A DNA stretch of 64,000 nucleotides from Limnobacter sp. MED105 (GTDB lineage Bacteria; Pseudomonadota; Gammaproteobacteria; Burkholderiales; Burkholderiaceae_B): contig NZ_ABCT01000005.1 of assembly GCF_000170915.1 (NCBI RefSeq), positions 62,001 to 126,000 on the forward strand. The letters are read 5' to 3'. Each line of letters begins with the position of its first letter. Position 1 is the stretch's first letter. The position numbers and the translations under genes were made by a program. The notes beneath the pieces were generated by a model. It made no database searches. It had not been told where the DNA came from and worked only from the letters and a program-made list of their open reading frames with translations. Of this stretch, positions 49,429 to 54,764 are shown in pieces.

Positions 49429-50361
49429 GTGGACAATCCCAAAGACCTTTCGCCACTGGCCAAAGGCGACATTGAAATAGGTAAAGCGCTGCCATTCGCG
49501 ATTTTTGACAGAAGTGGTGTATTGCTGCTGGCTGAAGGCCAAGCGGTGAACAGTCAGAAACAGCTTGATGAACTGGCTGCCAAGGGCCTATATCACAATC
49601 CCCGGTGGGCCTCCAACTTCGTTATTCAACCTGGCAAACCTCAGCTTGATTCAACGGCTTTGCCTAGAATGCTTCCGGCGAAGCAGGCGTTCGAGGACCC
49701 CTTCGAAACGGGCAGTCAACTGAAAATGTTCGCGCCCGGTCAGGCCAAAGATCCCTTCCACGTTCGTTTAATTGGCAGCATTCCTCAAGCAGCCATTTTG
49801 ATCACGCACCCCATGCGGGATGGTAAATGCGTATTTGCCAAAGAGGGGCAGGTTTGGGAATTTCAAGCCACCTACGGTTTGTCCATTTACCGCTTTAGTT
49901 CAATGATCGAAAAGGTATTGTTGTCGCCGCACCCACTGATTGTGATGTCATGGCCGCATGAAACTCACCTCGAGTCGCAGGCCATTCGCCGAGCCAGGCG
50001 GGTGAATTGTGATTTGCCCGCAACCATTCGTTTGAATGACAGTAAAGGTGGTTCAGTCGAGTCGATCACTGCGGTGATCGATAACATTTCCACAGGTGGG
50101 CTTGAGCTGTTGTTTTCCAAAGCGGTGTCGTTCAACATGGGGCAATCCATTTCTATTGCATTTCAAATTATCCTGGATGACCGCAAGTACCTGATTGAAT
50201 GCGACGCCGAGGTGGTCTCAAAACCGCGTGACTCTGGCCCCACTTCATCAAGCTACGGCTTTGCCTTAAAGTCCTTGGGCGATGAGCAGTTTGCAGTCAT
50301 TCACGCGTTTGTCAGCGATCGCCTGAATCACCGCCTGGGCCCACAACTTTATTCAAAGTAG
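49429..50361 (+). CDS. PilZ-domain protein (c-di-GMP binding, YcgR-like)
   Basis: A 310-residue protein. A C-terminal PilZ domain spans about residues 184-298, with the RxxxR region (RRARRVNCDLPATIRL) and the D/NxSxxG motif (VIDNISTGGLELL), so the c-di-GMP-binding residues are present. The N-terminal 170 residues include a YcgR-like flagellar-brake/PilZN domain (VRLIGSIPQAAILITHPM, FAKEGQVWEFQATYGLSIYR). The likely role is control of motility or pili. It starts at GTG and faces the minor-pilin operon tail to tail with 2 bp between the stops. Confidence 0.87.
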   Translation: MDNPKDLSPLAKGDIEIGKALPFAIFDRSGVLLLAEGQAVNSQKQLDELAAKGLYHNPRWASNFVIQPGKPQLDSTALPRMLPAKQAFEDPFETGSQLKMFAPGQAKDPFHVRLIGSIPQAAILITHPMRDGKCVFAKEGQVWEFQATYGLSIYRFSSMIEKVLLSPHPLIVMSWPHETHLESQAIRRARRVNCDLPATIRLNDSKGGSVESITAVIDNISTGGLELLFSKAVSFNMGQSISIAFQIILDDRKYLIECDAEVVSKPRDSGPTSSSYGFALKSLGDEQFAVIHAFVSDRLNHRLGPQLYSK

Positions 50362-50363
50362 CC

Positions 50364-50909
50364 TCACAGCGGGCTAACCAGAGTGTACACACTGACGTTT
50401 TCTGTTTGGTTGTCTCGTGTGTGCGCATCAATCCAACTGGCTTCAATGTGCACCCAAACCCCGTTGGTTTGCGTGTTTAAACTGGGCAAGGGCCGGATGC
50501 TGATGCATGAAGCAGCCCCCTGTGACCATGCTCGGGGCAAGGTGGCCTGGTTCACATTAATTGCGTTATTGGGTGCCCCCAAGGCCCTTGGTCCATTGCT
50601 GGTGCATTCGTAGCCTCTTGCACCCGCATAACTGTTCAAGTGGTCTTCCAGTCGCCCCGAGAACTGTTGCATCCGGGAAATGATTTGCCCACGTGGCGTG
50701 TCCCTGTCTAGGTCTGAAATATTGGCCAACAACACATTGCCAATTTCCGCAACCTGAGTCGCCGCGATTGAACGCACATGGGTCGAGTTTTTGGCACCAA
50801 AATTGGCGGTCCAGTTTTTGGCATACAACACCAAACCAATCGACAGCACCAGTATAGCTATCAAGGCATCAACCATTGCAAACCCGTTTTTTCTAGAATC
50901 CAACTTCAT
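50364..50909 (-). CDS. PilV-like minor pilin
   Basis: A 181-residue prepilin-like protein. A short basic leader ends in Gly followed by FAMVDALIAILVLSIGLVLY, a type IV pilin N-terminal helix. The residue at mature +5 is Asp instead of Glu. The globular part has four Cys-containing or Gln-rich segments (SGRLEDHLNSYAGARGYECT). The frame extends upstream to 51110, but the ATG at 50909 is the pilin start. It overlaps the PilX-like gene by 17 bp. It is the last gene of the operon. Confidence 0.8.
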   Translation of the reverse strand: MKLDSRKNGFAMVDALIAILVLSIGLVLYAKNWTANFGAKNSTHVRSIAATQVAEIGNVLLANISDLDRDTPRGQIISRMQQFSGRLEDHLNSYAGARGYECTSNGPRALGAPNNAINVNQATLPRAWSQGAASCISIRPLPSLNTQTNGVWVHIEASWIDAHTRDNQTENVSVYTLVSPL

Positions 50910-51615
50910 GTTTACCCTTTGATTTCGGAGGTGGTGGCCGGGGTTCTTCCCGGGGCGGTGGCTCTGAAGGAGGTGGGTGTTGAACCGGTGGCGCTGGTGG
51001 AGGTGGCGGTGGCGGATTGGGGTCAGGTGGCCTGGGCGGTGGAGGTGGGGGTGGCGGTGTTTGAATTGGATTGTAGGGCAGACCGTTGCTGTCTTCCCGG
51101 TTGAATACAAATGAGCGTTTAACGCAGCCTGAATCTACACCGTCACTTCCGGAACAATTCACGCTGGCCACAATTTCAAAAGTCGCCCGATAATTTTCAT
51201 CAGAAATGGCGTGGTCGCAATTGTAAGGAACCACAATGCCCCGAATCACGATGTCCTGCCGCACATCGACGGGTGTGTCAGGGCTGGCCAACTGTATTTG
51301 CGGGTTCAACGTTTCAGGCAAGGCAACCGTCAAAGAGCATTCGCCGATGATGCGGGTGTCGCCGCGGTGAGAATCGATTAATTGCTGAATGGCAGCATCG
51401 TTACCAAAGTTGTGGGTGTAGTGCCGAAGGCCGGCATAGGCCAGTTGACGGGCTTCTTCAATGTGCTGTTTGGAGTTGGACAAATAAAGATCAAGGCTTG
51501 TAGTGGTGATGTTTTGTAGACTGATGAGCCCGAACACAATCACCAACACTACACATACAAACACGCCGAGTGCGCCGGTTTGTAATTTCTCTTGCAAGCT
51601 GCGCCACTTTTTCAT
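50893..51615 (-). CDS. PilX-like minor pilin with proline-rich C-terminal tail
   Basis: A 240-residue protein. The N-terminal helix follows a Gly (TGALGVFVCVVLVIVFGLIS, residues 13-32) in the manner of a prepilin, but mature +5 is Phe and not Glu. Residues 40-175 resemble a PilX globular domain and include several Cys. The last third is unusual: residues 187-230 hold 31 prolines in 44 residues, followed by a basic end (KSKGKHEVGF). Such poly-Pro stretches need EF-P for translation. The tail might be a surface adhesin stalk or wall linker. It overlaps PilW by 4 bp (ATGA) and PilV by 17 bp. Confidence 0.78.
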   Translation of the reverse strand: MKKWRSLQEKLQTGALGVFVCVVLVIVFGLISLQNITTTSLDLYLSNSKQHIEEARQLAYAGLRHYTHNFGNDAAIQQLIDSHRGDTRIIGECSLTVALPETLNPQIQLASPDTPVDVRQDIVIRGIVVPYNCDHAISDENYRATFEIVASVNCSGSDGVDSGCVKRSFVFNREDSNGLPYNPIQTPPPPPPPPRPPDPNPPPPPPPAPPVQHPPPSEPPPREEPRPPPPKSKGKHEVGF

Positions 51616-52331
51616 GATCCAACCCTTACCCGCGTCGTGTTCAGCAGGTGAATGATCCTGGCCTCCTCGTACTGTCCCTCGGTCAGGTTGTTGCCAATTT
51701 TGGCTTTGAACATGGCAATCCAGAACATATTGGATTCCGGGTTGTTCTCAATCACCGAGTTGCAGTTCTGTTCATAATGCGCTGTGACCTGATTGGGCGT
51801 ATTGGCTTGAAACCTGCAAAAACGAATATTGGTGAATTCAAAGTCGTGCTTGTTGTTTAAATCAAGCCAGTCTGGGTTGTTGCCGCAGAATGAGCCATGG
51901 TCAAATTGCGCCATGTTGACGCCATTCAGTTGCCGTTGAGACAGCACGCCATTGATCAGACGAAAGCCCGTTAAGTTAATCACGTCATTGCCGCTGCGAC
52001 TAACCCGGGTAGGGATACTCAAGCAAAAGTTTTTGTTGGTGGCTTGGTATCCATTGCATTGCGCGGCCTGGTTTTGCAAGCTGCACAGTTGTATGCCTTT
52101 GGCCTCGACGTCCGGGTTTTGGTAACTGCCGCCCCGGTTCAGGTGAACCGTTACAATTTCACCAATCCGGTTGACCTGGTCAACCAGGTTTTCGGTATTC
52201 AAATCGTTCTGCGCACGCATGCTGACCCCCATTAACTTGAGTGCGCCAGTGATGCTGATTGCCAACAAGGCCATGCCAATCAGCAAACTGACTGAAGATG
52301 CGCCATGACAATTTGGTTTTTTGTCAGTCAT
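51612..52331 (-). CDS. PilW-like minor pilin
   Basis: A 239-residue protein. A short leader ends in HG and is followed by ASSVSLLIGMALLAISITGA, the hydrophobic pilin helix. The usual Glu at mature +5 is a Ser. The C-terminal region contains a long globular domain with several Cys (DFEFTNIRFCRFQANTPN and FCGNNPDW) and no membrane segments, as in PilW. It overlaps the FimT-like gene by 8 bp and the PilX-like gene by 4 bp, so translation is probably coupled. Confidence 0.75.
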   Translation of the reverse strand: MTDKKPNCHGASSVSLLIGMALLAISITGALKLMGVSMRAQNDLNTENLVDQVNRIGEIVTVHLNRGGSYQNPDVEAKGIQLCSLQNQAAQCNGYQATNKNFCLSIPTRVSRSGNDVINLTGFRLINGVLSQRQLNGVNMAQFDHGSFCGNNPDWLDLNNKHDFEFTNIRFCRFQANTPNQVTAHYEQNCNSVIENNPESNMFWIAMFKAKIGNNLTEGQYEEARIIHLLNTTRVRVGS

Positions 52332-52812
52332 AGCTCACCACTCCGTTGCCGATGCCCAAGTAGGTAATTTCTGCGCGTTTGTCACGGTAGTTCAGGGTTA
52401 GGCGTGTTTGGTTTTGTGTATCCAGTACACCCGACACGGCATTGAAATTCAGGTCCACTGCGCCAGCCAAGGTGACGTTACTCAAGGTGGCTGAAAATCC
52501 GCGGTTGTTTTGGCTGCCAGTTTGCGCGTACCACGCACTACAACCTTTCATAAACGAATCGTGTTGAACGGTTACATTTACGTTCACCGCACCATTGGCT
52601 GGCTGCAGATTCATCTTGACCGGGCATTCAGTGATTGCAGCCAAGTTACGGGCTTGGTCCACATAGGTGTCCAGCCGTGAAACTTTCACTTTTAGCGTTT
52701 GTTTGTTCAACACCGAGTTCATGCCGGGAATGACCGAAACCGCCAATACACCCACCACAGCAAGCCCAATCAGTATTTCCATCAACGTGAAACCCAGATT
52801 GGTCTTAGCCAT
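52324..52812 (-). CDS. FimT/GspH-type pseudopilin
   Basis: A 162-residue protein with a canonical prepilin N-terminus: NLG then FTLMEILIGLAVVGVLAVSV, with Glu at mature +5. The C-terminal part is the GspH/FimT beta domain (ITECPVKMNLQPANGAVNVN, then TLNYRDKRAEITYLGIGN). FimT-type proteins are minor components of the type IV pilus and may bind DNA. The frame extends upstream to 52893, but the ATG at 52812 is the pilin start. It overlaps the neighbouring genes by 8 bp on each side. Confidence 0.85.
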   Translation of the reverse strand: MAKTNLGFTLMEILIGLAVVGVLAVSVIPGMNSVLNKQTLKVKVSRLDTYVDQARNLAAITECPVKMNLQPANGAVNVNVTVQHDSFMKGCSAWYAQTGSQNNRGFSATLSNVTLAGAVDLNFNAVSGVLDTQNQTRLTLNYRDKRAEITYLGIGNGVVSYD

Positions 52813-53251
52813 GGGGAACACACCTGTCAGAGGTGTTTTGATTGGCGGCAGAACGGGCACCAAAACGTTGAATACCCATGTCGCTTTCAACAATCAGGGT
52901 TCTGCAGGCTTCGGGCAATTTCAGTGGGGCGCCAGCGCTGGGTGTAACTTCTGCGCGATAGCCACGAAAGTCAGAATTCGAAACAAGCACCCGGTATTTG
53001 GCTGAGGACGGCAAAATCAAGCGATTGGCATTGGGTGTACCGTTGCTTGAAACACCTTGGGCGTAGCGTCCGTAGCGTTGCCGGTGCAGTTGCTGGCTTA
53101 ATGCCAGTTCCACGCCAAACTCCCGCATGGTGCGAAAGTTTGATTTTTCCCAAGAGGCTTCATACCCTGCATAGCTGAGCGTCGCGAGTACTCCAACAAT
53201 TGCAATTGCAACCGTCAGTTCAATCAAGGTAAATCCGAGGCCCGCACGCAT
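52805..53251 (-). CDS. PilE-like type IV pilin (minor)
   Basis: A 148-residue prepilin. The leader MRAGLG is followed by FTLIELTVAIAIVGVLATLS, the classical helix with Glu at +5. The globular part is of PilE type (EFGVELALSQQLHRQRYGRY, then PEACRTLIVESDMGIQRFGA). It is the first gene of the minor-pilin operon. The frame extends to a TTG at 53257, but the ATG at 53251 is natural. It is probably a minor pilin that helps initiate assembly of the filament. Confidence 0.85.
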   Translation of the reverse strand: MRAGLGFTLIELTVAIAIVGVLATLSYAGYEASWEKSNFRTMREFGVELALSQQLHRQRYGRYAQGVSSNGTPNANRLILPSSAKYRVLVSNSDFRGYRAEVTPSAGAPLKLPEACRTLIVESDMGIQRFGARSAANQNTSDRCVPHG

Positions 53252-53313
53252 GGTCAAACACCAAAAATAACTGTATGTGCTTGAGTATGCGTGGGTATTT
53301 CGTGCTCATCATC

Positions 53314-53355
53314 CCCGAGGCAGGGTACTTACAAACGGTGGTGGTTTGCCTCGGG
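53314..53355. repeat. 9-bp perfect inverted repeat in the purB to pilin spacer
   Basis: CCCGAGGCA (53314-53322) and TGCCTCGGG (53347-53355) enclose a 24-nt loop that itself contains CAAAC/GTTTG. It lacks a T-run. It lies just after the purB stop and before the pilin operon; it may be a processing hairpin or a protein-binding site. Confidence 0.5.
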
Positions 53356-53363
53356 TGTGATTG

Positions 53364-54764
<1,401 letters not shown>

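Follow-up and report, generated by a model that had tools for sequence, protein, structure and literature searches.

A PilX-like minor pilin of Limnobacter carries a polyproline tail that is conserved in presence and composition and variable in length

The polyproline tail of a PilX-like minor pilin of Limnobacter sp. MED105 is, as far as genomes have been sampled, a real and lineage-restricted elaboration of a known part. Judged by the sequences compared, the presence and the composition of the tail are conserved, its length is variable, and the peptide that ends the protein is conserved. It is quite possible, if short of probable, that the tail is a polyproline spacer of variable length which presents a short C-terminal peptide at the pilus tip, on a capping pilin.

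The gene lies in a stretch of 64,000 nucleotides that was analysed as a whole and is here called the window; all positions refer to it. It is the fourth of five genes of an overlapping minor-pilin operon between purB and a PilZ gene. The gene order is fimT-fimU-pilW-pilX-pilV, with purB upstream and, on the other side, the PilZ-domain gene followed by secF and secD. We take the open reading frame at 53364..54740 to be purB, and the names secF and secD are likewise presumed. The features are the following:

49429..50361, plus strand: PilZ-domain protein (PF07238, PF12945), convergent to the operon and bordering a variable site
50364..50909, minus strand: pilV-like minor pilin, mature residue 5 Asp; TIGR02523 at E 4.3e-6, below the cut-off
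50893..51615, minus strand: PilX-like (capping-type) minor prepilin of 240 residues, from relatives, predicted fold and a cleavage site placed by eye
50896..50925, minus strand: C-terminal decapeptide KSKGKHEVGF, encoded by DNA that also contains the pilV start and its likely ribosome-binding site
50926..51057, minus strand: polyproline tail, residues 187-230, 31 prolines in 44, from proline count, relatives and codon comparison
51058..51615, minus strand: pilin body, residues 1-186, with cysteines C93, C133, C154 and C164; AlphaFold2 model
51612..52331, minus strand: pilW-position minor pilin, mature residue 5 Ser; named by position, without a Pfam or NCBIfam match
52324..52812, minus strand: FimU/GspH-type minor pilin with Glu5, ATG start at 52812; family match (scanned as 52324-52815)
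52805..53257, minus strand: minor pilin of the FimT type with Glu5, first in the operon, starting at a TTG or at an ATG two codons later; family match
53364..54740, minus strand: presumed purB, the conserved other edge of the variable site

FimT and FimU match TIGR02532 above its cut-off, and with five overlapping genes, several of them for prepilins with G|F-type cleavage sites, the group qualifies as a type IV minor pilin operon. The same genome encodes PilB and a PilT-family ATPase, both above NCBIfam cut-offs, a PilC/GspF-like protein adjoining PilB (below cut-off) and a major pilin. An N_methyl scan of the genome, of a kind that misses the PilX, PilW and PilV types, did not turn up another FimT/FimU-like pair of type IVa. 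A further pilin cluster of this genome (L096:4534-9988) contains what we take to be an ATPase and a GspF-like protein next to a cation/proton antiporter-like gene.

The original prediction was made from the letters of the window alone, and all its countable details are correct: the open reading frame on the minus strand at 50893-51615, the 31 prolines in residues 187-230, the runs of eight and seven, and the end KSKGKHEVGF. The runs occupy residues 187-194 (eight), 201-207 (seven) and 227-230 (four), and 32 prolines fall within the final 60 residues. In all six frames of the 64 kb window, runs of more than four prolines occur only in this tail. The claim that the tail DNA (50926-51057) is G-rich on the plus strand also holds, with 75 G in 132 positions. 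An mRNA G-quadruplex is unsupported, as the pilX mRNA is C-rich, its template being the G-rich strand, and a pattern scan found no three-tetrad pattern in the tail DNA; two-tetrad patterns are present there and make up 27 of the 291 plus-strand starts in the whole window.

Sixteen genomes of the genus were compared, the window's own (G000) and 15 others (G001-G015), and the purB-PilZ site was read in 15, all but G010, whose contig ends there. Among named relatives the closest were Limnobacter sp. P1, Limnobacter sp. 130, a Limnobacter MAG (CACIAM 66H1), L. parvus YS8-69 and a MAG classified no further than Gammaproteobacteria. An operon of the near type, that is, of the window's own kind, was found in G000, G005, G006, G007, G012 and G013, and also in Limnobacter sp. 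P1 from another collection. The tail is present in all six near-type genomes, the window's included, and in P1, or 7 of 7 PilX proteins. By a count made by eye, which begins at the proline block and stops at the final proline, it has 44 residues in G000, G007 and G013, 48 in P1 (with a 4-residue insertion), 41 in G005, 24 in G012, where both long proline runs are lost, and 47 in one of two G006 copies (G006b), where the middle is rich in Tyr and Asn. Residues other than proline are also kept (SEPPPREEPR). The diverged operon of G004 encodes a PilX that is 28% identical overall and 23% over the body, and this protein too has a PPPPPPPP run, further proline clusters and the end KGHWDVGI. Runs of at least four prolines occur in all eight tails read; the related pilins of G015 and of the second G006 copy (G006a) lack a proline tail.

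Because independent relatives encode the tail in frame with other synonymous codons, it is confirmed to be real and not an assembly artefact. The original prediction had proposed a search for the tail in related genomes, where its absence or a frameshift would speak against it; the relatives carry it in frame. Sequencing error or frameshift is rejected on the same grounds. Recent microsatellite slippage as the whole story is rejected as well, given the mixed codons and the preponderance of third-position differences; the changes in tail length show some indel history.

Such a tail is unusual for PilX, as had been supposed. None of 32 PilX_N-family proteins has more than nine prolines per 44 residues, the longest run is four, and the last 60 residues contain one to eight. 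These proteins are one locus each of the best-scoring genomes among 92 matches listed, not a random sample; 29 come from other genera of the order and three from Limnobacter (G004, G003 and G001, the last below the family cut-off), and for one locus (L129), to which two frames fitted, the frame was chosen by its hydrophobic start. A family-level profile search found the pilin in 6 of 200 sampled genomes, all of the window's genus. At the order level, 8 of 399 sampled genomes matched at E 1e-3, two of them of Limnobacter and the other six over only 62-91 N-terminal positions. Searches of an open library found no description of such a tail, and the passages found in PMC12288463 concern other proteins.

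The variation among tails bears on a rival explanation, which we consider somewhat unlikely: that the tail is a tolerated disordered extension without a specific task, encoded by the 3' end of pilX between the pilin domain and the start of pilV, its composition and frame loosely kept and its end peptide kept through the DNA of the pilV start. A tolerated extension would accommodate the range in length from 24 to 48, the insertion in P1 and the Tyr/Asn-rich middle of G006b. It would also fit the closest pairs, in which change at the protein level is greater in the tail than in the body: 1 synonymous and 3 nonsynonymous differences in the tail against 8 and 0 in the body for P1-G013, 2 and 2 against 26 and 1 for G007-G013, and 3 and 1 against 26 and 1 for P1-G007. 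More distant pairs differ mostly synonymously, and this strong bias argues against a merely tolerated extension. The counts for the closest and the more distant pairs alike depend on the alignment, which has gaps in this low-complexity stretch. Relative to G000, the synonymous and nonsynonymous codon differences in the tail number 12 and 0 of 44 codons for G007, 19 and 1 of 40 for G005, 11 and 1 for P1, 11 and 2 for G013, and 8 and 2 of 24 for G012. The third-position excess has P 4.7e-5 for G007, 2.1e-4 for both P1 and G013, and 1.1e-6 for G005, and is not significant for G012 (P 0.12). The proline runs of at least four residues in every tail likewise speak against mere tolerance, as does their expense, since such runs are costly to translate and need EF-P. 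Our reading of these alignments is that the composition and the ends of the tail are kept, with some freedom in its exact sequence and in its length. A spacer would be expected to show this pattern, in which the ends stay fixed and the middle varies.

The fixed end is itself shared with the next gene. The overlap of pilX and pilV measures 17 bases, so that the last pilX residues overlap the first pilV codons, and the stretch with the likely pilV Shine-Dalgarno site, AAATCAAAGGGTAAAC before the ATG, reads as KSKGK in the pilX frame. The basic end that the original prediction had pointed out is thus present, but at least in part a by-product of the overlap with the pilV ribosome-binding site and start. 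The end GK[HQ]EVGF stays constant while the tail length runs from 24 (G012) to 48 (P1). In G000, P1, G007, G013, G005 and G012 the DNA of this end holds the likely pilV ribosome-binding site and ATG, and since the same DNA serves both, the conservation of the peptide is partly forced, as a tolerated extension would have it. G006b, however, has lost the pilV ATG, the nearest in-frame start being a TTG six bases further on, and still ends in KGKQEVGF. The most likely pilV start in G004 is an ATG beyond the pilX stop, though pilX itself contains an in-frame TTG; that the PilX of G004 is proline-tailed although the genes most likely do not overlap speaks against tolerance, and its peptide, KGHWDVGI, scores 20 against KGKHEVGF. 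The best non-relative scores 17 among 401 ends of long open frames (at least 150 codons, from the window and 18 loci, many of them not genes), and 111 of 79,800 pairs of frame ends, relatives included, score at least 20. This comparison provides moderate evidence in favour of a protein-level role of the end peptide, the match in G004 being short.

The same overlap could have a different meaning, namely that the proline runs act in translation, with EF-P-sensitive pausing before the pilX stop and pilV start setting the PilX:PilV ratio or linking tip synthesis to EF-P activity. Polyproline runs cost translation and need EF-P, so EF-P dependence of tail synthesis is to be expected; the tail, with its runs of eight, seven and four, has the marks of an EF-P client (runs of at least three prolines in a genome that encodes EF-P). 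The EF-P gene is adjacent to that of the EarP rhamnosyltransferase in G000, and EarP was found in all eight genomes tested (with a score below the NCBIfam cut-off and above the Pfam cut-off). A role in translation would gain from this pairing, from the position of the runs upstream of the overlap, and from the low tail dS in three pairs (0.35-0.39 against 1.1-1.4 in the body). In pairs with G005, however, tail dS is similar to body dS. G004 keeps its proline runs most likely without an overlap, G012 has lost the two long ones, and the retained non-proline residues (SEPPPREEPR) would be needless for pausing. We give this explanation a slim chance.

A spacer at the pilus tip presupposes that the protein is what the original prediction called it, PilX-like. 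The position of the gene in the operon, the lack of Glu5 and the predicted fold stand on the side of this name, but no PilX family model recognises the protein. PF14341 (PilX_N) does not match it at E 1 and has no match in the whole of G000 at E 0.001, and neither Pfam nor NCBIfam offers a usable family. A search of PDB sequences gave no match at E 1. A weak BimA match falls mostly on the proline tail and is of no use for an assignment. Cleavage of the prepilin is predicted, by eye, at G14|A15, giving a mature N-terminus ALGVF with Phe in place of Glu5. Available passages of PMC12040237 define a capping pilin by the missing Glu5. As the residue is also missing from the pilW-position protein (Ser5), its absence alone is not decisive for the window pilin.

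The AlphaFold2 model has an N-terminal helix and an antiparallel sheet, with a mean pLDDT of 68.9 and a pTM of 0.52. Residues 51-180 mostly lie at 69-90, residues 1-50 at only 42-64, and the tail drops below 50 at its end; across the five models the range is 45-69. Among ten aligned sequences C93, C154 and C164 of the body are invariant and C133 nearly so. Foldseek found no match of the model in the PDB at E 1e-3. In VIA-align, where Z below 8 is a middling range and hits are mostly unrelated folds from Z 4.6 down, the first three rows are ComZ (Z 7.5, rmsd 3.4 over 88), Streptococcus sanguinis PilA (Z 7.3, rmsd 3.7 over 110) and a chain of the XcpGHIJK pseudopilus model (Z 5.1, rmsd 10.1 over 110); no row among those shown is labelled GspK alone, though the protein may still belong to that family. 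Together, the gene order between pilW and pilV, the missing Glu5 and a predicted pilin fold of moderate confidence point to a PilX/GspK-type (capping) minor pilin that is not a member of PF14341. It shares the fimT-fimU-pilW-pilX-pilV order, the lack of Glu5 and, as predicted with moderate confidence, the pilin fold with PilX of P. aeruginosa and V. cholerae, GspK and ComGG, and differs from PilX/GspK-type capping pilins by the lack of a PF14341 match and by the polyproline tail, which is absent from the 32 PilX_N proteins.

The model that we propose is that of a capping minor pilin of the Limnobacter type IVa pilus with a proline-rich spacer before a conserved end peptide. According to the available parts of PMC10191384, pilus assembly begins with a minor-pilin complex capped by a subunit without Glu5. 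The window pilin, which lacks Glu5, would sit at the very tip, and because of this position we infer that the spacer would hold the end peptide off the tip. C-terminal polyproline forms an extended helix of 0.31 nm per residue; such a helix would hold the end peptide up to about 14 nm out. The tail would be rigid, would project and would bind a partner, the end peptide contacting a surface, a glycan or another tip protein. Its synthesis should need EF-P, encoded beside the EarP rhamnosyltransferase. In short form, it would do the job that elsewhere falls to an adhesive module on the capping pilin or to the non-pilin PilY1.

Extra segments on presumed tip pilins are known, so far as the available parts of these sources go, from S. 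sanguinis PilB and PilC (PMC10191384) and from Thermus thermophilus ComZ (PMC6561018), but these add folded adhesive or solenoid domains, whereas the window pilin adds a spacer and a short peptide. Closer in form is ComGG of Streptococcus pneumoniae, likewise a capping pilin with an extended low-complexity C-terminal tail. That tail is rich in lysine and glutamate, whereas the tail studied here is rich in proline and has a conserved terminal peptide. According to the passages available from PMC12040237, deletion of the lysine-rich ComGG tail leaves transformation intact; this dispensable tail is the strongest warning against the spacer reading, and it lends weight to a tolerated extension. Also to be counted against a spacer are the nonsynonymous tail changes in the closest pairs, the 24-residue tail of G012, the tailless pilins of G015 and G006a, and the moderate quality of the model.

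A tip function beside PilX has also been proposed for the adhesin PilY1/PilC, which is a separate, large non-pilin protein; in the parts of PMC7541494 available, PilX3 of Myxococcus xanthus is placed at the top, and PilY1 accumulation needs PilX3. PilY1 (PF05567) was found in 3 of the 16 genus genomes (G001, G003 and G004) and in none of the six near-type genomes, including G007, a single contig of 99% completeness. It is only a possibility that the tail replaces PilY1, since 7 of the 10 other genomes also lack PilY1 and in G004 it occurs together with a proline-tailed PilX; the association is weak (0/6 near-type against 3/10 others).

A further explanation is that the pilus is a DNA-uptake pilus, in which the basic tail end would bind DNA and the polyproline spacer would hold this DNA-binding peptide at the tip. 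For Legionella FimT, a C-terminal tail reportedly binds DNA, which offers a precedent. Besides the lack of PilY1 in near-type genomes, the presence of ComEC in all nine genomes tested favours DNA uptake, but ComEC also occurs in genomes without the near operon. The best structural neighbour of the body, ComZ at Z 7.5, is a DNA-binding tip pilin according to the available parts of PMC6561018. On the other hand, a motif scan found the FimT-type DNA-uptake motif G[RK]x[RK], taken from the available text of PMC12040237, in none of the five operon pilins. The end peptide also carries a Glu, the final twelve residues in G004 include only two lysines, and the positive residues are encoded where the pilV ribosome-binding site lies. 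The dispensable lysine-rich tail of ComGG (PMC12040237, in the parts available) argues in the same direction, and we regard DNA binding as improbable.

The operon that encodes the putative spacer occupies a variable minor-pilin site between conserved housekeeping genes, the purB-PilZ interval (window 50361-53364; L055-L061). The operon is missing in G001, G003, G008, G009 and G014, where the alignments of purB and of the PilZ gene end 11-45 bases apart. In G002, purB lies near secF, and neither the operon nor the PilZ gene was found. G006 carries a tandem pair of diverged copies, the operons of G004 and G015 are diverged, and G011 has an inverted, different pilin operon at the site. The latter operon includes a protein of 930 residues that starts like a prepilin and for which neither Pfam nor NCBIfam gave a usable match (L059:4201-6990), possibly a giant capping pilin. 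G009, in which the site is empty, has a minor-pilin operon elsewhere, with a 375-residue protein in the PilX position (L142:4219-5343).

The PilZ-domain neighbour at 49429-50361 is 82.6-94.5% identical in eight other genomes of the genus and 48-52% in G004, G008, G009, G014 and G015; despite the diverged PilZ gene, secF and purB close by remain 95-99% identical in G008 and G009. Going by these identities, the PilZ gene, on the border of the variable site, has perhaps been replaced. The near type is scattered over a tree built from secF, purB and mnmA, which leaves out G010 and G002 (fewer than 50% filled columns). There G006 is grouped with G001 (support 84/81) and G012 with G011 (98/98), and both G001 and G011 lack the near type. 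For P1, G007, G013 and G005, inheritance of the operon looks vertical, since its synonymous divergence is similar to that of the flanks.

We find it rather unlikely that Limnobacter swaps pilus tips as cassettes at this one site, and that lineages without PilY1 use an EF-P-gated polyproline rod with a conserved octapeptide as a minimal tip ligand, in which only a spacer and a short peptide would be left of an adhesin. The purB-PilZ site nevertheless offers a natural series of exchanged minor-pilin cassettes within one genus. The capping pilin determines both the initiation of a type IV pilus and the contacts of its tip. As the tail is compact and can be removed without touching the pilin fold, its part in tip adhesion is directly testable. 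If true, a conserved polyproline rod at the tip would be a new kind of tip extension, and would make pilus function dependent on EF-P.
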